Virus record (IMG/VR): IMGVR_UViG_3300046466_000226
Coordinates: 1-28,591 of that record
Direction: 5' to 3' (one strand)
Length of the DNA stretch: 28,591 bases
From: a virus
Shown here: piece after piece, positions 3,968 to 14,367 of the stretch
Layout: each line of letters begins with the position of its first letter
Position numbering within the stretch: the stretch's first letter is position 1
Notes under the pieces: model-generated
The model's input: the letters and a program-made list of their open reading frames with translations, nothing else
Database searches by the model: none
What the model was told of the DNA's origin: nothing
Position numbers and translations under genes: made by a program

Positions 3968-4996
3968 ATGAAAGTAAGAACTCTAAAAAACAACGCAGTC
4001 GAAGCTTATGACTTTGATATCTACTCTGACGAGAATATCGCAGACTTGGGTAGACTTGTCGCGAATGAGTCTGTCGTTCTGGTAGACCAGAAACTAGACC
4101 AGAAGAGAACCTATGATGTTCAGATGCAGTGGGGTAGTCCCGCACACTCAATCGTTCACCTTGCCACATCGGTAGGGACAATGAAGGGTGTTCATTGGAA
4201 TAGTCTTCGACTGAATATTCTTAACGGTTCATCAGAGATTGAACCAGACTATCGCAACACCATGTCGGTTGTTACCTATCAGAGAAATAAGAAAGGTAGA
4301 CCGAAGGGTGTTTTTGCGAATGGCATATTGGGTTGGCACAGTGACCAAGTTGCCCTCAATGATGGAGACCGTATCATTGGTTTGGTTTCGGTTGAACATA
4401 CCGAAGGGTCACAGACTGCATTTCTTTGCACCAAAGAAGCATATAACAAACTGAATCACGAAGACAGAACGATGGTTGATGAACTCCAGAGTGTGTATCG
4501 TTGGAACAGAAAAAACTTTACGGGTAATCTGATTGACGAACAGAAACAGATGGTCAGATATAATCAAGTCCCTGTCGATGGTATGATGTGTAAACTACAA
4601 CAGTCAACACCGTCTGGTGTGAAGGGTATTCACTTCCCTGGCACTCTCTTCCATAAGTTCGATGGTATGACCGAAGAAGAAAGTCTGAAGTTCAAGGAAT
4701 ATCTCTGGGAGAAAATCAATCGGCCTGAATACATCTACACTCACGACTGGAAGGACGGTCAGGTTGTCTACATGGAACAGAACATCACTCTACACGCCCG
4801 TCCAACCGATATCATAGATGGTAATATGCGTAAGTTGTGGCGTAATATTTCATATATGGACAAACTATATTCAGGCGAGGGCCACAAAGATGAGTATACG
4901 GTGGACGGTAAAGTAATGGACGGTTCTGAATTCTTAACTTTGGTTGATGATATTCGAAGAGAAGAGTATGAGTCTGGAAGAAAAATTGCTGTCTAA
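3968..4996 (+). CDS. TauD/TfdA-type 2OG-Fe(II) dioxygenase
   Basis: The 342-residue length and layout fit the TauD/TfdA/gamma-butyrobetaine hydroxylase family. The proximal iron motif is GWHSDQ (H124, D126). The distal histidine lies in [10 protein letters not shown] (H276), followed by R288 and R292 at the spacing of the 2OG-binding arginines. These enzymes hydroxylate small molecules such as taurine, carnitine precursors or amino acids, using O2 and 2-oxoglutarate, in the cytoplasm. The substrate cannot be read from the sequence. The start at ATG 3968 follows the tRNA by 20 bases. The gene overlaps the next by 29 bases. Confidence 0.88.
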
Positions 4997-5456: not shown

Positions 5457-5487
5457 GAGACGCCCACGGTTAGCGTCTCATTTTTTT
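5457..5487 (+). terminator. Rho-independent terminator
   Basis: A 7-bp stem GAGACGC (5457-5463) / GCGTCTC (5473-5479) with a 9-base loop is followed by A and seven Ts. A second, overlapping stem TCGCG/CGCGA (5440-5458) lies just upstream. It separates the dioxygenase unit from the curli operon. Confidence 0.9.
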
Positions 5488-5508: not shown

Positions 5509-5516
5509 TATAAATA
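5509..5516 (+). promoter_or_regulatory. T4-type late promoter of the curli operon
   Basis: TATAAATA at 5509-5516, between a strong terminator and the first gene at 5533, is well placed to drive the operon up to about 11397. Transcription would begin near 5522, leaving GAGGT (5522-5526) as ribosome site. No sigma70 boxes are seen here. Confidence 0.7.
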
Positions 5517-5532
5517 GGCATGAGGTAAGTAA

Positions 5533-5814
5533 ATGGAACAAGTGTTCACAATCATTGCTGAACTGGGTTTCCCTATTGCTGCCGCCTTAATTGGTGGTTT
5601 TTTTATGTTTCTGACCCTACGATATATCATGGATGGTGTTATCGGTCAGGTGAAGGGAATACACGGTATCGTATCAGCACTCGATAATCGAGTAAAGACG
5701 ATGAATCATGACCTGATTCGTCTCGATACAACTATGTGTGTCGTTTTAGGAATAAGACCAGACCTGAATCGTATCTCCCGCGCAGACGGTAAAAACGATG
5801 CGAGGAGAGACTGA
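5533..5814 (+). CDS. Small membrane/coiled-coil protein, YvrJ/holin-like
   Basis: The 93-residue product begins with a hydrophobic span (ELGFPIAAALIGGFFMFLTL, residues 10-29), then an amphipathic heptad segment (HGIVSALDNRVKTMNHDLIR) and a basic tail. The layout resembles small YvrJ/BhlA-type holin-like phage proteins. It and the next gene share the FGFPI/LGFPI start and a coiled coil with a D(L/I)IRL motif, so they are tandem paralogues. They lead the curli operon, so a role in membrane assembly or release is possible. GAGG seven bases before ATG 5533 supports the start. Confidence 0.65.
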   Translation: MEQVFTIIAELGFPIAAALIGGFFMFLTLRYIMDGVIGQVKGIHGIVSALDNRVKTMNHDLIRLDTTMCVVLGIRPDLNRISRADGKNDARRD

Positions 5815-6062
5815 TGGATGTTATAACCGCAATTAAAGATTTCGGTTTTCCTATTGTAGCGGCGGTTGGTATGTTGTATATGATTTATTTCGTCTGGAAA
5901 ACAATTACAGAGAAGATTGAAGTCTTTCTATCTGAAACTCAAACTACACTGGTTGGTTTGATTGACCGTGTTCGTATGTTGGACAATGATATCATTCGTC
6001 TACAACAAAAACTTGATACAGCGATTGAAGTAAAGAGAAGAGAAGATGAATCAAAAGAATAG
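5814..6062 (+). CDS. Small membrane/coiled-coil protein, paralogue of the preceding gene
   Basis: This 82-residue protein has the same plan as its neighbour: KDFGFPIVAAVGMLYMIYF as membrane span (residues 8-26), then a coiled coil (LIDRVRMLDNDIIRLQQKL). It starts in a TGATG overlap and overlaps csgF by 17 bases. It lacks the signal peptide and cysteines expected of CsgE, so it is not an evident CsgE replacement. Holin-like or accessory membrane function is inferred. Confidence 0.65.
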   Translation: MDVITAIKDFGFPIVAAVGMLYMIYFVWKTITEKIEVFLSETQTTLVGLIDRVRMLDNDIIRLQQKLDTAIEVKRREDESKE

Positions 6063-6573
6063 AGATATGTTTCGTAAATCTATTGGGCCAAATATCTGGT
6101 CAGGAGCAGATTTATGGAAAGCATTTATCGTTGGCGTAGTGGTTGGTATAATAGTGTTCTGGACAACAGATGCGATAGGCGCACCAATCGAATACAGTTT
6201 CAAGTCGCCATCATTCAATGGTGTCAATCAGTCATCACACTATCTGACGATTGAGAATCAAGAAACATCACGCAAAGAAGCAATAAAACAAGAATTAGAA
6301 GACTTACAAAAACAATTAGAACGAGACGCAAAGAATACGACACTTGCTAAGTTTATACGAAATGTAGAAAGTCGAATTTACTCTACACTGTCCAGACAAC
6401 TTGTGGAAGAGATGTTCGGTGAGAACCCATCAGATTCAGGTGAATTTGAGATTGAAGGCGCGGGTATCTCATATGTAAAAGATGATTTAGAAAACGAAGT
6501 GGAGTTAACGGTAACTGATGAAGATGGTAGCCAGACTGTCATTGTTATTCCTATCGGCGATTTTGGTTTCTAG
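6046..6573 (+). CDS. csgF: CsgF-like curli assembly factor
   Basis: The 175-residue product has a hydrophobic signal (residues 24-40) with probable cleavage after AIGA (46). The mature start PIEYSFKSPSFNG reproduces the FxxPxFxG pattern of mature CsgF that binds inside the CsgG pore. Then come a polar linker with a charged helix (78-98), the helix LAKFIRNVESRIYSTLSRQL (100-119), and a beta part with VELTVTDEDGSQTVIVIP, matching CsgF LNVTD-type strands. In bacteria CsgF caps the CsgG channel outside the cell and anchors the nucleator. Unusual features are a longer N-terminal region before the signal core and an extra charged helix. It is directly upstream of csgG and overlaps it by 56 bases. 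Confidence 0.87.
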   Translation: MNQKNRDMFRKSIGPNIWSGADLWKAFIVGVVVGIIVFWTTDAIGAPIEYSFKSPSFNGVNQSSHYLTIENQETSRKEAIKQELEDLQKQLERDAKNTTLAKFIRNVESRIYSTLSRQLVEEMFGENPSDSGEFEIEGAGISYVKDDLENEVELTVTDEDGSQTVIVIPIGDFGF

Positions 6574-7321
6574 TTGCACGACCCACAAATGGGATGTCCC
6601 CTCGCAACCAGAATCAGCAAAAGTTCAAGTGGCTCTTCTGACAGAAGAATTACAGAATATTGAACCTCCGATACGAAGACCAACGGTGGCGTTATATGCG
6701 TTCACCGACCAAACAGGACAGAAGAAACAAAACGCAAACGGCGGAACATCATTTAGTTCTGCGGTTACCCAAGCACCAGAAGTTTATCTGATTCGTGCTT
6801 TGACTCGTGCGGCTAACGGTCAGTTCTTTAAGGTGGTTGATAGGTCTGCACTAGATTGGTTAACGAGAGAGAGACAACTCATAAGACAGACACGAAGTTC
6901 TTATGAAGGTGATGGTGCAAAAAAATTACCGGCATTGACCTTTGCTGGTATGATAATTGCAGGCGGTATAGTAGGATATGACCACTCTACCGAAAGCGGA
7001 GGTGCGGGTGCGAGATATCTCGGCATCGGCTCTTCCAGAGAGTTTAGTCGTGACACAGTGACAATCAACATGAGGTTGATAAGTGTTGCGACTGGCGAGG
7101 TTTTACTTGATGTCATAACAAGTAAGACCATACTATCTGTCGCGTTTGGCGGAGACGTATTTCGTTATGTGGAACAGGGCACTCGACTCGTTGAGATTGA
7201 GTCTGGGACTGCCCGAAACGAAAGCGTTTCGATTGCCACTCAACGAGCGATTGAAACAGGTGTCTTAGAACTTATAAAACTCGGAAATAGAAAAAAGTTC
7301 TGGACATTCAAAGGAGAGTAA
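6518..7321 (+). CDS. csgG: CsgG-family outer-membrane curli secretion channel lipoprotein
   Basis: A lipoprotein signal ends in LVSSC (C20). The rest matches CsgG along its whole length (267 versus 277 residues in E. coli): VALYAFTDQTGQKK, SFSSAVTQAPEVYLIRAL, VVDRSALDWLTRERQLIR, GMIIAGGIVGYDHSTESGGAGARYLGIG-type segment at about 147-173, VTINMRLISVATGEVL, TSKTILS and an SAIETG-like RAIETGVLELI. CsgG forms a nine-subunit pore in the outer membrane. By alignment the constriction Phe56 is kept (F79), while Tyr51 and Asn55 become N74 and S78, so pore selectivity may differ, fitting the acidic substrate downstream. The signal peptide is encoded inside the csgF 3' end. Confidence 0.95.
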   Translation: MKMVARLSLLFLSAILVSSCTTHKWDVPSQPESAKVQVALLTEELQNIEPPIRRPTVALYAFTDQTGQKKQNANGGTSFSSAVTQAPEVYLIRALTRAANGQFFKVVDRSALDWLTRERQLIRQTRSSYEGDGAKKLPALTFAGMIIAGGIVGYDHSTESGGAGARYLGIGSSREFSRDTVTINMRLISVATGEVLLDVITSKTILSVAFGGDVFRYVEQGTRLVEIESGTARNESVSIATQRAIETGVLELIKLGNRKKFWTFKGE

Positions 7322-7322
7322 G

Positions 7323-8060
7323 ATGAACACTTTACAAAGAATTTTTGTGATGTTGTTCCTAGTAAACGCAGGGACATCGCCCGTATGGGCTGATAATGCG
7401 GTCTACATTGACCAAGTAGGGTCAGGTGTAGATATCGATGTTACTCAAGACGGTAGTGGAAACACAATTAGTAACAATGCTAATGACACAACCAAAATGA
7501 AGGTTGATGGCGATGACATCAATTTGAGTATCGATACCGTTGGTGATACCAACAAAGTTCTTGGTGCTATTATAGGTGACAACAGTGATGTTGATTTAGA
7601 CATCGATGGCGACACCAATACAGTCACAATCGACATTGATGGAACTGACACCTATGGTGCTGGTAACGGCAATGTGGTAATCGATTTGGACGGCGGTAAT
7701 AACACACTGGACTTGAGCATTGGTAACAACGACCAAGCAACGGGCGCAGATGTTGACTGGATTGTTGACGGTGACTATAACAGTGTAACTGCTGATATTG
7801 ACATCAACAACGCAACAAATAGCATTGACTTCGCTGGAGACAATGTAACAATCGATTATGATGGTGACGGATATGATGGTCACTCTGTAACAATCGATGG
7901 CGTTGGAACAACAAACTACTGGGATATTCAAATAGACCAACAGTCAACGTTACAGTCTGATACATTGAGCATTGAAATCGAGGGTTCAGGTGACACGACT
8001 ACAGATAATACCTTATGTGTTTCTCAGTCTGATTCTGGCACCGCTACCGGCTGTCAGTAA
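7323..8060 (+). CDS. Curlin-like secreted repeat protein, acidic
   Basis: A signal peptide (cleavage after VWA, residue 23) precedes about nine imperfect repeats of roughly 20-28 residues with the pattern (V/L)xIDxDGxxN, for example GDTNTVTIDIDG and GGNNTLDLSIGNN. The first, VYIDQVGSGVDIDVTQDGSGN, has the classic curlin QxGxxN/QDGxGN form. Later repeats replace the glutamine ladder by aspartate. The protein is very acidic and ends with two cysteines (LC and GC, 12 apart). Position straight after csgG (two bases from its stop) makes it the likely fibre subunit, analogous to CsgA/CsgB. It lacks the glycine-rich N22 targeting region of CsgA. Its last 89 bases overlap the next gene. Confidence 0.85.
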   Translation: MNTLQRIFVMLFLVNAGTSPVWADNAVYIDQVGSGVDIDVTQDGSGNTISNNANDTTKMKVDGDDINLSIDTVGDTNKVLGAIIGDNSDVDLDIDGDTNTVTIDIDGTDTYGAGNGNVVIDLDGGNNTLDLSIGNNDQATGADVDWIVDGDYNSVTADIDINNATNSIDFAGDNVTIDYDGDGYDGHSVTIDGVGTTNYWDIQIDQQSTLQSDTLSIEIEGSGDTTTDNTLCVSQSDSGTATGCQ

Positions 8061-9096
8061 GGATGTCGGTCTCATAGACCGTGCAGTCGGCTGGAGACAA
8101 GTAGTTAGAGACACAAATGAAATCGAACCTGAAAAGGGGTTTGATATAATAGCAAAAGACGACCTTCGCACAGGCGAGGGGCGTATGCAAGTGAAGTTCG
8201 TTGATGATTCGAAACTTCGCATGACCGAACACACACGCATTGTGATTGACAATGTGGTGTTTGATGATGACCCAAGTAAGTCTGACCTTGCAATGACATT
8301 CGCGCAGGGAACTGCTCGTTTCATTACGGGTAAACTTGGGACGATTGAGAAAGAGAATATTAGATTGAGAACACCGACTGCCTCAATCGGTATTCGCGGC
8401 ACAGACTTTACTGTGACCGTAGACGAGTTTGGTCGCACACTTGTAGTATTATTACCTGATGTGAATGGTATATCATCGGGTGAGATTATTGTTTCGACAA
8501 TGACTGGTGAGGTAGTGTTGAACAAACCGTTTCAATCCACCACAACCTCTGTGACTGAGGCGCCTCCCAGCAATCCTGCCATTCTAGACTTGACTCTAGA
8601 TATGTTGGATAATATCTTGATTATCAATCCACCCAAAGAGAGAATGACAGAACAAGAGTTCTATACGTCTGTGGACAGTCGTAAGAATATCAATCCTCTT
8701 GATATTGACTTTCTCGATGAACAACTATTAGATAACGAGGAGTTTGAACGTGACTATCTGGAATTTACTGAACTTGATATCAATTTCCTTGATGTGGAAC
8801 TCCTCGAAAACCTATTAGATAGTTACTCTGACCTAGATGCAGAATTGTTGAAAGAGAAAGAGGATAAGAGTGATACTGTCGTAGAAGGGACGAGTGAGGG
8901 CTTTGACACGGTGACTCAAATCAGCACCGTTGTTGAGGGCGATAAGATTACGATGATTCGTAATGTTCAATCTATCGTGGAGATATCTGTTTCGAACAGC
9001 GAAGAGACATCTATAAATCTAGATGTTGATGGAAAGGAACTTGACCCCATTACGGTCAATGGTGGCGGTAATACCACTATAAGTATTAAACAATGA
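7972..9096 (+). CDS. Secreted FecR-domain protein
   Basis: The frame begins at TTG 7972 (or GTG 7990) inside the curlin gene. Either start retains a signal peptide, IIPYVFLSLILAPLPAVS (residues 12-29). Residues 62-150 are a FecR domain: DDLRTGEGRMQVKFVDDSKLRM, IVIDNVVFD, TFAQGTARFITG, TPTASIGIRGTDFTVTV. A leucine/aspartate-rich part (242-292) holds a repeat, LDIDFLDEQLLDN and LDINFLDVELLEN. The C-terminus ends NGGGNTTISIKQ, close to a curlin GxxN strand. FecR domains occur in surface or periplasmic sensing. It overlaps the cyclase gene by an ATGA, so the pair is translationally coupled. The non-ATG start deep in the preceding gene is unusual. Confidence 0.85.
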   Translation: MKSRVQVTRLQIIPYVFLSLILAPLPAVSKDVGLIDRAVGWRQVVRDTNEIEPEKGFDIIAKDDLRTGEGRMQVKFVDDSKLRMTEHTRIVIDNVVFDDDPSKSDLAMTFAQGTARFITGKLGTIEKENIRLRTPTASIGIRGTDFTVTVDEFGRTLVVLLPDVNGISSGEIIVSTMTGEVVLNKPFQSTTTSVTEAPPSNPAILDLTLDMLDNILIINPPKERMTEQEFYTSVDSRKNINPLDIDFLDEQLLDNEEFERDYLEFTELDINFLDVELLENLLDSYSDLDAELLKEKEDKSDTVVEGTSEGFDTVTQISTVVEGDKITMIRNVQSIVEISVSNSEETSINLDVDGKELDPITVNGGGNTTISIKQ

Positions 9097-10925
9097 AAAC
9101 ATGGCATGTCCTTATTACACTGGGGTTGATGATAACCCTGAGACTGCTCGACCCCTTTCTCCTTGAAAGTGCGAGACTGTCTTTCTTTGACTCGATGCAA
9201 AGAGGACAGGAATCAAAACAATCTGAACAGATTGTCCTTATTGATATTGACGAATCGACCCTAGAGAAGTTCGGTCAGTATCCAATCCCCCGCGAAACAA
9301 TGGCAGACGAGTTGGCAAAACTTGGCAATCAGTCAGTGTTAGGTATCAATATCTTATTATCAGAACCAGACAGGTTCGGAGGGGATGACGCATTTTCAAA
9401 TATGTTGTTTGAAATGGAAGCGGTAATTGCTATTGCACCAAGCGATAAGACAAACACAGACTCCCGACCAACACCTGTAGGTGTGGCAACATTCGGTGAC
9501 CGCGATGCGGTAGAGTTTCGACCTGAACTAGATGGGATGTTATTTGCACTACCTGACTTCATGACAACTGCAATGGGTCATGGAACAATCTCTGCAACAC
9601 AGGATATCGATGGTATCACACGGAGAGTTCCTCTGATTGAGAACTTCGAGGGTCGCATGTATCCTGCCTTTGCACTGGATATCCTTCGCGTGGCTGCGGG
9701 TGACATATCATATCAAATCAAGACAGACGATTACGGAATACGATTTGTTCGCATACCGAAGTTTGATGTAGTGCAGACAGACGATAATAGTAATGTGCGT
9801 ATCGCATTCTGGAATGAGTTCAAGAGATATTCTTTCACAGAGATAGACCAGATACCAAGCGGAAGTATTGCGATACTGGGTGCGACCTTTAAGGGGACAT
9901 CTGTCGTATCAACTCCTGTCGGTGCGATGTATCCGCATGACATTCAGGCGAACCTGTTGAAGACGATGATTGATGGTGTGACTATCATACGGATGCCAGA
10001 GTTCAAGTTTTATGAACTTTTCGCAACGATTTTAGTGTCAATAATGATACTATTCATGTTATCTAAACTCTCTATCGTCATTTCGGGGGTATTTTTCCTG
10101 ATTATCAGTTCAAGTTTCGTGAATGGTGCATCACTGATATTCGACAATACCTTTATGCTTCTTGACCCCATTTTCCCTGTTATAACATTTGTTATAATCT
10201 TTGCACATGGTTCGTTTGTCCAGTTCTATACACAATTCAAAGCGAAACAAATGATTAAGGGTCAGTTCGGAACGTATCTAAGTCCTGACATGGTTGACAT
10301 GCTTGCTAACGACCCGTCACTGATGAAACTGGGCGGTGAACGCAAAGAGATGACATTCTTGTTCATGGACATCTGTGGATTCACCCCGATATCAGAACAC
10401 TACAAAAACAACGATGACCCCGAAGGATTAGTTAATCTAATCAACGAATACCTGAACGAGATGACCAACATCATTCTACACAACGGTGGAACTATAGATA
10501 AGTATATGGGCGATTGTATTATGGCGTTTTGGAACGCCCCTCTACCATGTGAGAATCATGCAGAGATGGCAGTGAAGTCTGCTATCGAGATAGAGGAGAA
10601 GACAAATGAACTTAAAAAGAAATATGAGTCTCGCGGTCTCCCGCCTATTAATGTGGGGACTGGCATTAATACTGGCGATTGTATTGTTGGAAACATGGGC
10701 TCTGAAAGCAGATTCGACTATTCGGTCATTGGAGATGCCGTCAACCTTGCCGCAAGACTCGAAGCGACTGCCGCAAGAGAAGACTATGTTGATTTCAAAA
10801 CAATCTATTCCAGTCACACAATGGAACAACTCACCGATATCAAGTCAAGACCTATAGGTAAAATCAAGGTCAAGGGTAAAGATGAATTGATTGAGATATA
10901 CACACATGATACAGATAATCGATAA
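9093..10925 (+). CDS. CHASE2-domain membrane adenylate cyclase (class III)
   Basis: The 610-residue protein has an N-terminal membrane segment (5-20), a periplasmic CHASE2 sensor domain (about 30-300; QIVLIDIDESTLEKFGQYPIPR is typical), three membrane spans (about 306-375) and a class III cyclase domain (415-605). Catalytic residues are complete: metal aspartates D426 (FMDICGF) and D474 (KYMGD), purine-specifying K470 and D548 (VIGDAVNLAARLE), and transition-state N551 and R555. The K/D pair predicts cAMP rather than cGMP. CHASE2 cyclases next to FecR genes are known in environmental bacteria, so the pair was probably acquired together. A membrane-borne cyclase in a phage is unusual. It could alter host cAMP signalling during infection. 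Confidence 0.94.
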   Translation: MKTWHVLITLGLMITLRLLDPFLLESARLSFFDSMQRGQESKQSEQIVLIDIDESTLEKFGQYPIPRETMADELAKLGNQSVLGINILLSEPDRFGGDDAFSNMLFEMEAVIAIAPSDKTNTDSRPTPVGVATFGDRDAVEFRPELDGMLFALPDFMTTAMGHGTISATQDIDGITRRVPLIENFEGRMYPAFALDILRVAAGDISYQIKTDDYGIRFVRIPKFDVVQTDDNSNVRIAFWNEFKRYSFTEIDQIPSGSIAILGATFKGTSVVSTPVGAMYPHDIQANLLKTMIDGVTIIRMPEFKFYELFATILVSIMILFMLSKLSIVISGVFFLIISSSFVNGASLIFDNTFMLLDPIFPVITFVIIFAHGSFVQFYTQFKAKQMIKGQFGTYLSPDMVDMLANDPSLMKLGGERKEMTFLFMDICGFTPISEHYKNNDDPEGLVNLINEYLNEMTNIILHNGGTIDKYMGDCIMAFWNAPLPCENHAEMAVKSAIEIEEKTNELKKKYESRGLPPINVGTGINTGDCIVGNMGSESRFDYSVIGDAVNLAARLEATAAREDYVDFKTIYSSHTMEQLTDIKSRPIGKIKVKGKDELIEIYTHDTDNR

Positions 10926-11397
10926 TTTCCTAGATGAAGAACTCTGGGATGAACTGATTGAAGACTATCATCGATGTCGTATGTATAGTGCATATGAATA
11001 TGGTGAGAGACTAGGCAGTGAGTATTATAGAGTTCAGTCTTGGGTGGGGTGTTATCGTAGTGATAATCTGACAGACATTTATTCAGAAGTGACAGAGAAA
11101 ATAAAAGGCGAACTGGGTATTGAAGTTCAAAAGATGACCTTCTTCAAACATCCTAAAGAGAGTTTTCCCGAACCGATGACATACGGCATGAATATTCCTC
11201 AACACATCGATGCGAATTTCGAAAGGTCGGGGGTTCTCTACATGGTAGGAAAAGAAGGTATGGGGACAACTATCAAGGATGAATATGTAGAGTGGCAACC
11301 AAATCGTGCAATTGCATTTGACGCACAGACTTATCATAATCCAAACTTTGGTGGAAAAGATAGGATTTCTTTAACTTTTTTTGGAAAAAAGACTTGA
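10906..11397 (+). CDS. 2OG-Fe(II) oxygenase
   Basis: ATG 10906 overlaps the cyclase by 20 bases and gives 163 residues. The motif QHIDANFERSGVLYM supplies H100 and D102, AFDAQTYHNPNF supplies H144, and KDRISLTFF supplies R153 at the usual 2OG-binding place. This is the short prolyl-4-hydroxylase-like type common in marine T4-like phages. The target is unknown; similar small oxygenases may modify proteins or nucleic acids. It closes the curli/cyclase operon, and the next promoter starts on its stop codon. Confidence 0.83.
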   Translation: MIQIIDNFLDEELWDELIEDYHRCRMYSAYEYGERLGSEYYRVQSWVGCYRSDNLTDIYSEVTEKIKGELGIEVQKMTFFKHPKESFPEPMTYGMNIPQHIDANFERSGVLYMVGKEGMGTTIKDEYVEWQPNRAIAFDAQTYHNPNFGGKDRISLTFFGKKT

Positions 11398-11456: not shown

Positions 11457-12407
11457 ATGGCACATGCAGTAGAAACAATGGCGTATGCGGGAGAAGTTCC
11501 GTGGCACGGACTTGGTGTTCCTGTATCGAATGACCTGACTCCCCGTCAGATGATGGATAAGGCTGGTCTGGACTGGACGGTTGAGAAGGAAGACCTTGTA
11601 ACATCGTCTGGCGCAACAGTGGAAGGCAAACAAGCACTTGTGCGTTCCTCTGACAACAAGGTTCTGGATGTCATCGGTAAAGGATGGAATCCTGTTCAGA
11701 ATGAAGAAGCATTTGAGTTCTTCTCTGAGTATGTCCTTGCGGGTGACATGGAAATGCACACCGCTGGTTCACTCAAAGACGGTAACATGGTGTGGGGTCT
11801 TGCAAAGGTGAAAGATACCTTTGATATTCTTGGTGGTGACCAAGTTGACTCATATCTCTTGTTTTCCAATCCACACCAGTATGGTAAGTCAATCGACATT
11901 CGGTTCACACCGATTCGTGTAGTGTGCAATAACACATTGTCACTCTCACTTGGTCAGAAGGTTGCAAACTCGGTGTCTCTGAACCACCGCACTACATTCA
12001 ATCCTGACTCAGTAAAAGAGACTTTGGGTATTGCATCTGAAAAGTTTGCACAATACAAAGAGACCGCAGAGTTTCTTTCATCCAAACGTTTTGGTATTAG
12101 CGAATTGATTCAATACTACAACGAAGTATTCCCTCGCACCTATCAAGGTAAGAAGGAAGTCAATGTCAAGACTGTTGGAGACCTGACTACCAATGCTCAA
12201 AAAGCATACGAGGTTCTGGAAACTCAGCCTGGCGCAGAGTTCGGTGAAGGAACATGGTGGCAGGCACTGAACAGTGTGACCTACCTGACCGACCACCAGA
12301 TGGGTCGTGAGGCAGACACACGTTTGACTTCTGCATGGTTTGGTTCAAACCAGACACGCAAAGTCCGTGCTGTAGAAAAAGCGGTGGAGTATGCACTCGC
12401 CGCTTAA
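11457..12407 (+). CDS. DUF932 / TIGR03299 phage-plasmid protein
   Basis: The 316-residue protein matches the DUF932 family from its first residues: MAYAGEVPWHGLG, then LDWTVEKEDL, ALVRSSDNKVLDVIGKGWNPVQN, FSNPHQYGKSIDIRFTP and RVVCNNTLSLSL. The family is common in phages and plasmids and has no established function. AAGGAGA (11444-11450) is ideally spaced to ATG 11457, which is preferred over TTG 11451. It has its own sigma70-like promoter, so early or middle expression is likely. It overlaps the following hydroxylase-like gene by 17 bases. Confidence 0.9.
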   Translation: MAHAVETMAYAGEVPWHGLGVPVSNDLTPRQMMDKAGLDWTVEKEDLVTSSGATVEGKQALVRSSDNKVLDVIGKGWNPVQNEEAFEFFSEYVLAGDMEMHTAGSLKDGNMVWGLAKVKDTFDILGGDQVDSYLLFSNPHQYGKSIDIRFTPIRVVCNNTLSLSLGQKVANSVSLNHRTTFNPDSVKETLGIASEKFAQYKETAEFLSSKRFGISELIQYYNEVFPRTYQGKKEVNVKTVGDLTTNAQKAYEVLETQPGAEFGEGTWWQALNSVTYLTDHQMGREADTRLTSAWFGSNQTRKVRAVEKAVEYALAA

Positions 12408-13035
12408 AAATATCAAAGTCTTGGGAGAGGTTGACGTAATCACTTACGTCAATCTCTTTTCAAATATCGATGATAGAGATTGGATGGGTGAATTCAATAA
12501 ATTCACTAAACATTATATTCCAGGCTTCCAAGAACTTGAAATACTCCCTATGTTATATTCTCTCAAGAAGACACATGTAACTAAATTTAGAGACGATTAT
12601 ACTGTTGAGGAAGCCGCAAGTAATTGGTCGATTGATAACGCAGTGGACTATAGAACAGGCGGTGGTCTTGGCGAAGATTATGTTACCTTGAAAGGTAGGT
12701 TGTATGAAAAGTTTTATGATGAAAGATTACTGACCGATATAAAAAAATTACTATCCGATAAATTCGGTGACGGAACAATCAGTATGTTTTTGTTAAACCT
12801 TATGAATCCACATTCAAATATTGAACCACATGTTGATGATACAACAGGAAACAAAAGGCGTATACACATACCACTCGTAACACACCCTGATATTAAATTT
12901 CGTAACGGTAATGATGAGATACATATGGAAGTTGGTAAGGTTTATTTGTTTGACCATGAAAAAGAACACTCAGTCATAAATCCAACAGATTATGAACGTA
13001 TTCATCTGATAATGGATTGGAGACCAAATGATTAA
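12391..13035 (+). CDS. Asp/Asn beta-hydroxylase-like oxygenase, copy 1
   Basis: The 214-residue product ends in an aspartyl/asparaginyl-hydroxylase-like domain: LMNPHSNIEPHVDDTTGNKR gives H147 and D149, RIHIPLVTH follows, then EKEHSVINPTDYERIHLIMDW gives H193 and R203. All iron and 2OG ligands seem present, unlike the related gene at 4968. It is a tandem duplicate of the next gene, and a 56-base stretch (12886-12941) differs from the copy at only two bases, far more similar than the rest. The biological target is unknown. The start overlaps the DUF932 gene by 17 bases. Confidence 0.8.
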   Translation: MHSPLKNIKVLGEVDVITYVNLFSNIDDRDWMGEFNKFTKHYIPGFQELEILPMLYSLKKTHVTKFRDDYTVEEAASNWSIDNAVDYRTGGGLGEDYVTLKGRLYEKFYDERLLTDIKKLLSDKFGDGTISMFLLNLMNPHSNIEPHVDDTTGNKRRIHIPLVTHPDIKFRNGNDEIHMEVGKVYLFDHEKEHSVINPTDYERIHLIMDWRPND

Positions 13036-13651
13036 AGTTCTTGGTGAAGTTGATGTAAGTTATTATATTAATCTCTTCTCTAATATTGATGATGCAGACT
13101 GGATAGATGAATTTTCAAAATTCAGTAAAAAATATATTCCTTTCTTTCGAGAATTGGATAGACTGCCACTTTTGTTAAATATGAGAAAAGACTATGAAAA
13201 TAACTATGAAAGTATTGAAGAGATTATTACTACTTCAGACGTTGGTAATAATCATGATGTTGTTGAGTTTCTAAATGAAGGCGACTTAAATGATGACATA
13301 ACCATTAAAGGCAAATTCTACGAAAAATATTACAACAAAAAGTTTTTCGATGAACTTTTCGAAGTTGTCAGAAATGAGTTCGGTGATGGACAATGTATGA
13401 CATTGATTTTTAATTTAATGAATCCTCACTCTAGGATTTATCCACACGCAGACGAGAGAACTGGTAATAAGAAACGTATACATATTCCTATCATTACACA
13501 TCCTGATATTAAGTTTCGTAACGGTAATGATGAGATACATATGGAAGTTGGTAAAGTATACAAAATAGAACATTCTATAGAACACTCTGTTGATAATCCG
13601 ACAGATTGTGAACGTATTCATTTAGTGATTGATTGGAAGATTAATGATTAA
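13028..13651 (+). CDS. Asp/Asn beta-hydroxylase-like oxygenase, copy 2
   Basis: This 207-residue paralogue of the preceding gene shares the N-terminus (IKVLGEVDV and LFSNIDD) and the catalytic part: PHSRIYPHADERTGNKKR with H140 and D142, SIEHSVDNPTDCERIHLVIDW with H186 and R196. The middle third (residues 50-95) has diverged strongly, which could reflect different partners. It overlaps copy 1 by 8 bases. Base composition is lower in GC than nearby genes, especially in the middle, but this is an eye estimate. Confidence 0.8.
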   Translation: MIKVLGEVDVSYYINLFSNIDDADWIDEFSKFSKKYIPFFRELDRLPLLLNMRKDYENNYESIEEIITTSDVGNNHDVVEFLNEGDLNDDITIKGKFYEKYYNKKFFDELFEVVRNEFGDGQCMTLIFNLMNPHSRIYPHADERTGNKKRIHIPIITHPDIKFRNGNDEIHMEVGKVYKIEHSIEHSVDNPTDCERIHLVIDWKIND

Positions 13652-13805
13652 ATTATTAAACTGGATTGGTAGAGTTTTCTCTACTCAAGATATCGACTAT
13701 GAGGAAACTCTAGGCGAGGAAGCTCGTCCTCATTGGGTGAAAAACGATGATGACGAATATATTGAAGCAATGTTAAATAGTGAAAAGGTTATAACAGATG
13801 ATTAA
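13644..13805 (+). CDS. 53-residue acidic hypothetical protein
   Basis: ATG 13644 overlaps the end of the previous gene by 8 bases, and the stop at 13803-13805 overlaps the peroxiredoxin start by 8. The product begins MIKLLNWIGRVFSTQDIDYE and is then strongly acidic (WVKNDDDEYIEAML). No family is recognised. The tight overlaps on both sides are the main reason to call it a gene. Confidence 0.5.
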   Translation: MIKLLNWIGRVFSTQDIDYEETLGEEARPHWVKNDDDEYIEAMLNSEKVITDD

Positions 13806-14367
13806 AGGTGTAACATTACCTCAAGTAACATTTCCAACCCGTGTTCGTAATGATGAACTGGGTGGAGACAACCCATTTGAATGGCGGAACGTGAGCAGTT
13901 CGTTTCTGTTCGGTAGTCAAGATTTGAAAAAACGTGTGGTGGTGTTCTCACTGCCAGGCGCATTTACTCCAACATGTTCGACATATCAATTACCTGACTT
14001 TGAGAAACTCGTGGCAGAAGGTGAGTTTGGGAAGTATGGTATCGATGATATTTACTGCGTATCAGTGAATGACACATTTGTAATGAACTGTTGGGCAAAA
14101 GACCAGAACCTCGAACATGTCAAAGTCGTGCCAGATGGCACGGGTGAGTTCACTCGCAAGATGGGTATGTTGGTTGACAAGTCGAATATCGGATTTGGTA
14201 TGCGGTCATGGCGTTATGCGATGATTGTCAAAAACGGTGTGGTTGAGGAATTCTTACCAGAGCCAGGGTTTGCAGACAATCATGGTGAAGACCCATATGG
14301 CGAATCATCTCCACAGAATGTTCTAAAAGTTCTTGAAGGACTCGAAGTTTCGGGCGCCCCTGTCTAA
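13798..14367 (+). CDS. Peroxiredoxin (Prx5-like)
   Basis: The 189-residue protein has the peroxiredoxin motif VFSLPGAFTPTCSTYQLPDF with peroxidatic C60, then GIDDIYCVSVND, FVMNCWAKDQN and RSWRYAMIVKNGVVEEF, all typical of the Prx5/AhpC-TSA2 group. It would reduce peroxides using thiols in the cytoplasm. C83 (IYC) and C93 (MNC) are other cysteines that might serve as resolving partners. In a phage this would protect the infected cell from oxidative stress and counts as an auxiliary metabolic gene. It is the last gene before a sigma70-type promoter. Confidence 0.9.
   Translation: MIKGVTLPQVTFPTRVRNDELGGDNPFEWRNVSSSFLFGSQDLKKRVVVFSLPGAFTPTCSTYQLPDFEKLVAEGEFGKYGIDDIYCVSVNDTFVMNCWAKDQNLEHVKVVPDGTGEFTRKMGMLVDKSNIGFGMRSWRYAMIVKNGVVEEFLPEPGFADNHGEDPYGESSPQNVLKVLEGLEVSGAPV

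Follow-up and report, generated by a model that had tools for sequence, protein, structure and literature searches.

A curli-type secretion cassette with a FecR-domain protein and a CHASE2-cyclase in a marine phage, and a possible fibre-base role for FecR

The window analyzed here comprises positions 1 to 28,591 of the virus record IMGVR_UViG_3300046466_000226. Within it lies a cassette of seven marine phage genes (5533-10925), all on the plus strand and arranged in one apparent late operon. The genes follow the order sm1, sm2, CsgF, CsgG, a curlin-like repeat protein, a FecR-domain protein, and a CHASE2-cyclase. A sequence-only reading of this DNA had described a phage-borne type VIII (curli) secretion cassette in one late operon spanning 5509-11397. 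The cassette was upheld and falls inside that span, while the ORF at its end (10891-11397) is a separate oxygenase-like gene outside the cassette proper. CsgF, CsgG, and the curlin-like protein were confirmed to be consecutive, through Pfam matches for the first two and a family-level match for curlin. Among the cassette ORFs, no Pfam match to CsgE, CsgC, or CsgD was found.

A late promoter and a terminator had been proposed ahead of the cassette, and a candidate for each was recovered. The T4-type late promoter motif TATAAATA is found on the plus strand at 5509-5516, and was identified by counting the motif in the window and in the upstream stretches of relatives. The window contains 7 copies against 1.14 expected, a number reached in 0 of 100 shuffles. 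Among distinct upstream stretches from the near clade, 34 of 35 have the motif ahead of the first cassette gene; in a wider set that takes in distant loci, and for which start positions were cruder, this falls to 41 of 135. Strand folding placed a terminator-like hairpin at 5457-5487 (plus strand), with a 7-bp stem and a 9-nt loop followed by U7; its folding z is -1.63, and 12 of 200 shuffles fold equally well. This hairpin was missing from the hairpin scan because the loop limit of the scan is 8. By eye, near relatives have similar or different hairpins upstream of the cassette.

The first two genes, sm1 (5533-5814; 93 aa) and sm2 (5814-6062; 82 aa), both match phrog_18771 (E = 1.1e-31 and 7.6e-24, respectively), and alignment shows sm2 to be a relative of sm1. 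From their sequences they are classed as predicted small membrane proteins ahead of csgF, sm1 having an apparent single membrane helix followed by a coiled-coil-like stretch. In addition, sm2 weakly matches a family of phage holins (E = 0.0051). Genes at the position before csgF have been published under the label "histidine kinase" ("HK"). However, neither small protein matched any Pfam family at E ≤ 1, HisKA and HATPase domains included. In the sm1 family (n = 102), an H-box-like His is found in 36 members and Asn in 27, and the motif is unmatched in 39. That the gene pair in the published "histidine kinase" position matches no kinase domain is, at the level of sequence profiles, new here.

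CsgF (6046-6573) was placed in its family by profile search, as the earlier reading had proposed (PF10614, E = 3.6e-13; 50.2 bits, where 25.8 is the cut-off), and is 41% identical to the CsgF of HTVC008M. The FxxPxFxG start of CsgF is its putative docking site for CsgG. This motif, which had been noted in the window, is present in 144 of 144 phage CsgF proteins; among bacterial CsgF ORFs, PxFGG was found in 69 of 72 and the full FxxPxFxG in just 6 of 72. CsgG (6518-7321), the lipoprotein pore, matches PF03783 (E = 2.3e-45, 154.9 bits), and its family profile matches solved CsgG with E = 2.5e-62. The lipobox ascribed to it is visible as VSSC in the window, and of 148 distinct CsgG proteins from phages, 144 have a lipobox pattern.

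The next gene (7323-8060) encodes an Asp-rich repeat protein with a signal-peptide-like start, which was assigned by profile comparison and an AF2 model. By itself, the window protein falls below the Pfam cut-off (PF07012, E = 0.018; 15.4 bits against 20.7). Curlin_rpt is matched at E ≤ 10 by 33 of its 55 relatives, the lowest E being 8.6e-6, and DUF3060 by 24 of the 55, the lowest E being 2.8e-5. Across all 55, certain Q, G, and N positions are invariant. In a profile-profile comparison, the phage family matches a bacterial curlin-like set, consisting of 53 proteins near csgG picked by curlin motif, with E = 2.9e-12. Judged from these profiles, the curlin identity holds at the family level. 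The AF2 model is a beta-solenoid (pLDDT 84.6, pTM 0.81) with strands approximately every 11 residues in the middle part. A fold search with this model returned nothing at E ≤ 0.001. Solved curli were absent among the matches listed, an absence that excludes nothing, and the best VIA-align match was the SufB/SufD beta-helix (Z 16.6), read as "beta-solenoid" alone. Against the sequences of solved structures, the curlin, CsgF, small-protein, and FecR profiles found no trustworthy relative.

The sixth gene (7972-9096, starting at TTG 7972 or GTG 7990) encodes a protein with a FecR domain (PF04773, E = 1.1e-11), and FecR is the one Pfam family that the 57 members all match. Its layout consists of a signal-peptide-like start, a FecR fold, an acidic linker, and a C-terminal beta region with a curlin-strand-like tail. 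In the structural model (overall pTM 0.51) the linker is of low confidence and the C-terminal beta region is confident. The head aligns with the PupR signalling domain (6ovk; Z 15.0, 136 aligned), and part of it resembles 5ix9 (Foldseek E = 0.044, probability 1.00), at a Z of 7.0 for which the tool warns that the likeness may be merely a common arrangement. The PDB title of 5ix9 is "Cell surface anchoring domain"; this structure may come from the giant adhesin MpAFP, as its retention region, for which a literature search gave no confirmation. In the ferric-citrate regulator, FecR begins with a cytoplasmic anti-sigma domain, after which comes a membrane helix. No anti-sigma half was seen in the model of the phage protein, where the sole helix (5-21) precedes a beta domain starting at 33. 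The phage FecR is therefore unlike the ferric-citrate regulator, given its signal-peptide-like start and the missing anti-sigma half. Among the 20 ORFs around the gene that were scanned with Pfam, a part of those in the window, none matched an ECF sigma factor or a TonB-dependent receptor.

A curlin-strand-like motif ends 151 of 151 distinct phage FecR proteins collected, compared with 3.4% of shuffled tails, 0 of 660 proteins from five other cassette families, and none of the 9 bacterial relatives of FecR whose C-terminus could be read. The phage FecR proteins share descent, so these 151 tails do not represent 151 independent events. In profile comparison the tail maps, weakly, onto the last repeats of curlin. 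Against the phage curlin profile it scores 24.4 (E = 5.7e-4; best of 100 column-permuted controls 19.3). In absolute terms this similarity is low, with a probability of 29.6%, and the CsgF profile reaches 20.8 with that curlin as well, though at E = 0.024. With the bacterial curlin-like set the tail scores 19.2, where the control gives 15.1; with bacterial repeat units it scores 14.5 over 8 columns only, where the control gives 12.6. Curlin_rpt was absent among the best 25 of 33 Pfam families matched by the 57 FecR proteins. Among the published papers listed by literature searches, none dealt with a curlin-like tail on the phage FecR protein, and in the main text of PMC9599517, as available, the strings "nucleat", "C-terminal", and "anchor" are absent.

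The last gene (9093-10925) encodes a CHASE2 sensor joined to a class III nucleotide cyclase (Pfam E = 1.2e-31 and 1.2e-19, respectively). Both Asp as well as the Lys, Asn, and Arg catalytic patterns are present in the window protein, and cAMP is the putative product. All tested patterns were found in 99 of 116 phage cyclases; the Asn/Arg pattern is missing in the other 17, including that of Melnitz. Among 139 loci where a cyclase would fit, it went undetected in 9, and the FecR and curli genes remain there.

The cassette is also found in many other phages. A search of phage genomes for co-occurrence, suggested by the earlier reading, covered 200 viral loci, many of them partial and some overlapping on one contig. 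Nothing contradicts the order csgF, csgG, curlin, fecR, cyclase in 198 of these, and the other two differ by an additional curlin that precedes csgF. Given enough contig, CsgG is accompanied by CsgF in 158 of 158 cases and by FecR in 153 of 153, and curlin follows CsgG wherever the contig continues past it (L049 and L139 end there). Pelagibacter phage HTVC008M (NC_020484), with the T8SS module of PMC9599517, has the order of the window from the two small genes to the cyclase, and differs from it in that fecR and the cyclase are separated by a second curlin-like gene. Methylophilales phage Melnitz (MZ577097; PMC9004378) likewise shares the order and has a second curlin-like gene. The possibility that the region is a bacterial contig chimera was rejected because these cultured phages carry the same arrangement. 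Curli-like genes in marine phages, mentioned in the earlier reading, were indeed reported in 2020 and 2022 (PMC7029224, PMC9004378, PMC9599517), in descriptions that include FecR and the cyclase. The suggestion that their combination might be undescribed did not stand, as pelagiphage curli regions with FecR and adenylate cyclase appear in PMC9599517. What differs here from that module is the reinterpretation of FecR and the small genes without a kinase domain match.

The bacterial curli T8SS (E. coli csg and alphaproteobacterial csgF-csgG) shares the CsgG, CsgF, and curlin families with the phage cassette, which unlike it lacks matches to CsgE, CsgC, and CsgD. In the best 80 of 366 bacterial CsgG loci, covered up to 10 kb on each side, there was no FecR match and one CHASE2-cyclase match, at a locus edge. 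The proposal that FecR and the cyclase already resided within alphaproteobacterial curli operons is thus unsupported. FecR was matched in just 2 of 15 tested genomes from those best 80 of 366 loci. In some alphaproteobacteria FecR adjoins CHASE2-cyclases; of 126 sampled genomes for which a cyclase was listed, at least 26 have the two within 6 kb of each other. FecR-CHASE2 gene clusters have been published for Campylobacterota (PMC9239204) and Burkholderia (PMC5192318). These combine a FecR-domain envelope protein with a CHASE2 sensor as in the phage, but no joining to curli genes was seen in the accessible text of these papers.

We consider the chances evenly balanced that the locus is a phage type VIII secretion cassette, expressed late and linked to a FecR/CHASE2-cyclase module. 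After Sec export, CsgG and CsgF would assemble into a pore in the outer membrane, through which the curlin-like protein would leave late in infection to become a surface fibre. The folded FecR head would hold its protein in the periplasm, with a linker of roughly 100 residues putatively running through the CsgG-CsgF pore to a curlin-like tail that would nucleate or anchor the fibre outside the cell. The CHASE2-cyclase, through a putative contact with the FecR head, could then turn fibre or export status into cAMP. For the phage, the benefit may lie in keeping cells together, in preventing superinfection, or in setting the time of release. Against this reading count the lack of clumping with Melnitz under the conditions of PMC9004378, the low similarity of the tail to curlin, the absence of Curlin_rpt among the FecR matches listed, the low pTM of the FecR model, and the loci in which no cyclase was detected. 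The full proposal, in which FecR is a new fibre-base protein and the whole a trans-envelope curli sensor with a cAMP readout, built by phages from two bacterial modules, is tentative and on present evidence rather unlikely.

A published alternative, to which we give the same low standing, is that the curli simply hold sibling cells together or shield them from superinfection, with FecR and the cyclase regulating their expression. It draws on the hypotheses of PMC7029224 and PMC9599517, and homologues of the subunit, the pore, and the chaperone are present; the putative roles in aggregation and superinfection exclusion suggested earlier coincide with these hypotheses. However, a FecR with a signal-peptide-like start and no anti-sigma half fits poorly with it, the late-promoter motif of near-clade phages could already set the timing, and Melnitz produced no clumping under the conditions of PMC9004378. 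A less probable reading, published for Melnitz, holds that CsgG-CsgF is a gated hole which serves to depolarize or permeabilize the envelope during lysis, or to let molecules in, with curlin being vestigial. The lysis role is argued in PMC9004378 and uptake is mentioned in PMC7029224. Moreover, six of the nine loci without a detected cyclase have spanin-pair-like ORFs (by eye) after FecR, five of these six, closely similar to one another, with a lysozyme-like ORF. Against this, curlin comes after CsgG wherever the contig is long enough to show it, and its invariant Q, G, and N positions are unlike those of a relic. The least probable reading makes the fibre and pore mainly an antenna, with cAMP retuning host metabolism late in infection; the largely intact catalytic patterns and the Sinorhizobium CHASE2-cyclases that respond via the outer-membrane barrel NsrA (PMC13001267) favor it, but the cyclase is undetected in some loci keeping the other genes and a host cAMP receptor is only putative.

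Curli cassettes are widespread in ocean phages, viral curli proteins having been found at all 65 GOV2.0 stations (PMC9599517), and in the available text of PMC7029224, PMC9004378, and PMC9599517 their function is given as hypotheses only. The system itself is already known; the FecR anchor idea is a new and testable addition. The phage "FecR" has apparently been misread, and may anchor the fibre instead of regulating iron. If it is both fibre anchor and sensor, the iron-regulation reading must be dropped, and the cassette would be testable part by part in E. coli K-12.

The curli (type VIII secretion) cassette occupies 5533-10925 on the + strand of the window, a virus record of 28,591 bases. 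Its seven consecutive genes begin with two for small proteins; csgF, csgG and a curlin-like gene follow, and genes for a FecR-domain protein and a CHASE2-cyclase close the series. The sequence-only reading had placed CsgF, CsgG and the curlin-like protein consecutively, and this was borne out: the Pfam matches of the window's ORFs to CsgF, CsgG, FecR, CHASE2 and cyclase are strong. The curlin match of the window's own protein falls below the cut-off, and the assignment is firm at the family level, through relatives and profile comparison. Upstream of the operon lie a hairpin with a U-run and then TATAAATA; the hairpin has a fold z of only -1.63 and is absent from the output of a hairpin scan. 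The TATAAATA late-promoter motif precedes the opening gene of the cassette in 34 of 35 distinct upstream stretches from the near clade, but in 41 of 135 once distant loci were counted, which makes it a feature of the window's clade. Zaragoza-Solas et al. were unable to predict late promoters for pelagimyophages (PMC7029224). All seven TATAAATA sites of the window are on the + strand, and the one at 2689 falls within the tmRNA gene region. This phage-borne, two-piece alphaproteobacterial tmRNA (2652-2996; Rfam RF01849, E 1.1e-26, and RF04321, E 4e-21) is missing from ARAGORN output; one reading by eye would give a tag ending in ALAA, and the tmRNA hints at an alphaproteobacterial host.

Of the 200 viral loci collected, many are partial, some share a contig and overlap, and a few nearly duplicate the window. 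A single order of the genes present is kept in 198, and the remaining two have an extra curlin ahead of csgF. Where enough contig was available, CsgF accompanied CsgG in 158/158 loci and FecR did so in 153/153, so that FecR is as constant as CsgF. The cyclase followed FecR in 130 of 139 such loci and was undetected in nine, making it the more dispensable part. In six of these nine (L138, L152, L155, L160, L162 and L169), overlapping spanin-pair-like ORFs, recognized by eye, occupy the cyclase's place after FecR, and all but L138 also have a T4-type lysozyme-like ORF (by eye). The curli cassette thus adjoins a likely lysis module there, although the five lysozyme-bearing loci are closely similar and represent few lineages. 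In two other loci (L008 and L020) the cyclase is broken into several open frames, as is FecR in L020, through either sequencing errors or gene decay in these contigs. A record labelled 'Salmonella phage' (OR851715) encodes a CsgG-like protein; at only 1499 bases, it is probably bacterial DNA.

The window's gene order was also found in two cultured phages, HTVC008M (Pelagibacter) and Melnitz (Methylophilales). CsgF and CsgG plus further genes were reported in 2020 (PMC7029224), the Melnitz pore was modelled in 2022 (PMC9004378), and PMC9599517 (2022) gives HK, CsgF, CsgG, CsgA/B, FecR, a second curlin and adenylate cyclase for pelagiphages of two families. The earlier suggestion that the combination with FecR and a cyclase may be undescribed therefore fails. 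The same source labels the position before csgF as a histidine kinase. Both small proteins encoded there, of 93 aa (sm1) and 82 aa, fall in a single phage protein family, and neither matches a Pfam domain at E <= 1. Of 102 sm1 proteins, 36 have an H-box-like His. On these sequences the kinase label is not supported for the two genes.

FecR residues 60-218 (model) match the PupR periplasmic signalling domain at Z 15.0 and, judged from the model, the fold assignment is right. Although it shares this fold, the phage protein does not fit the FecR of the citrate system, since in sequence and model it lacks an anti-sigma half and has a single helix at its N-terminus, which is taken to be a signal peptide. 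In sampled alphaproteobacteria its best relatives are often found close to the N-terminus of very long proteins. Part of the FecR head is also similar to the solved structure 5ix9, a 'cell surface anchoring domain', with a Foldseek E of 0.044 and a probability of 1.00. The Z of 7.0 for this match, over 73 residues, is of a level that may reflect a mere common arrangement. The model continues with a low-confidence linker and then a beta region at the C-terminus, modelled with confidence, whose end is a Gln that does not vary among 57 relatives. The linker (window 8700-8870) contains a conserved acidic-hydrophobic stretch of the L-D-I-D-F-L-D type, with several positions invariant among these relatives.

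A curlin-strand-like pattern closes 151/151 distinct phage FecR proteins, a count that reflects constraint rather than independent gains because they share descent. It was found in 3.4% of shuffled tails, in 0/660 proteins of five other cassette families and in 0/9 bacterial FecR relatives with a readable C-terminus (few, some of odd length). In profile comparison, the tail aligned to the last repeats of curlin above all 100 permuted controls, and it also outscored 100 controls when the target was a set of bacterial curlin-like proteins or, over 8 columns only, the repeat units of those proteins. The match is weak in absolute terms (probability 29.6%); CsgF scored 20.8 (E 0.024) against the same curlin profile, and the Pfam curlin model was not among the families listed for 57 FecR proteins. 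The likeness of the tail to curlin is suggestive.

In bacteria, a FecR match lies within 6 kb of a CHASE2-cyclase in at least 26 of 126 sampled genomes with a listed cyclase, among the matches listed. The sample is the class to which an Azospirillum belongs, taken as Alphaproteobacteria, and the matches come from two lists of 150 rows each, out of 385 and 372 genomes. A FecR match is likewise near the cyclase in 6 of the 30 best cyclase loci, with short flanks, whereas no FecR match was found in the best 80 of 366 bacterial CsgG loci, some on short contigs. The phage cassette thus appears to be a curli exporter joined to a FecR-CHASE2 signalling pair. Such pairing is described for Campylobacterota (PMC9239204) and for Burkholderia (PMC5192318), where the partner is a CHASE2 kinase.

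Patterns for the metal-binding Asp and for the Lys, Asn and Arg can be read in the sequence of the window's cyclase. All catalytic patterns tested are present in 99 of 116 phage cyclases, and the Asn/Arg pattern is absent in 17, including that of Melnitz. The base-selecting position, readable in 101, is Ser (62) or Thr (39), which fits class IIIb adenylate cyclases. Oxygenase-like genes cluster around the cassette, namely a TauD-like gene (3968-4996), a weak Asp/Asn hydroxylase-like gene (10891-11397) and two Asp/Asn hydroxylase genes (12391-13651), followed by a redoxin gene (13798-14367; all by Pfam).

The analysis establishes the identities of the genes, their order and conservation, the late-promoter motif, and the fold and tail pattern of FecR; the mechanism is inferred. 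As a system the curli cassette is already known, and its new, testable part is the reinterpretation of FecR. The CsgG-CsgF pore would export the curlin-like solenoid, the FecR protein may serve as fibre anchor or nucleator, and cAMP would be the readout.
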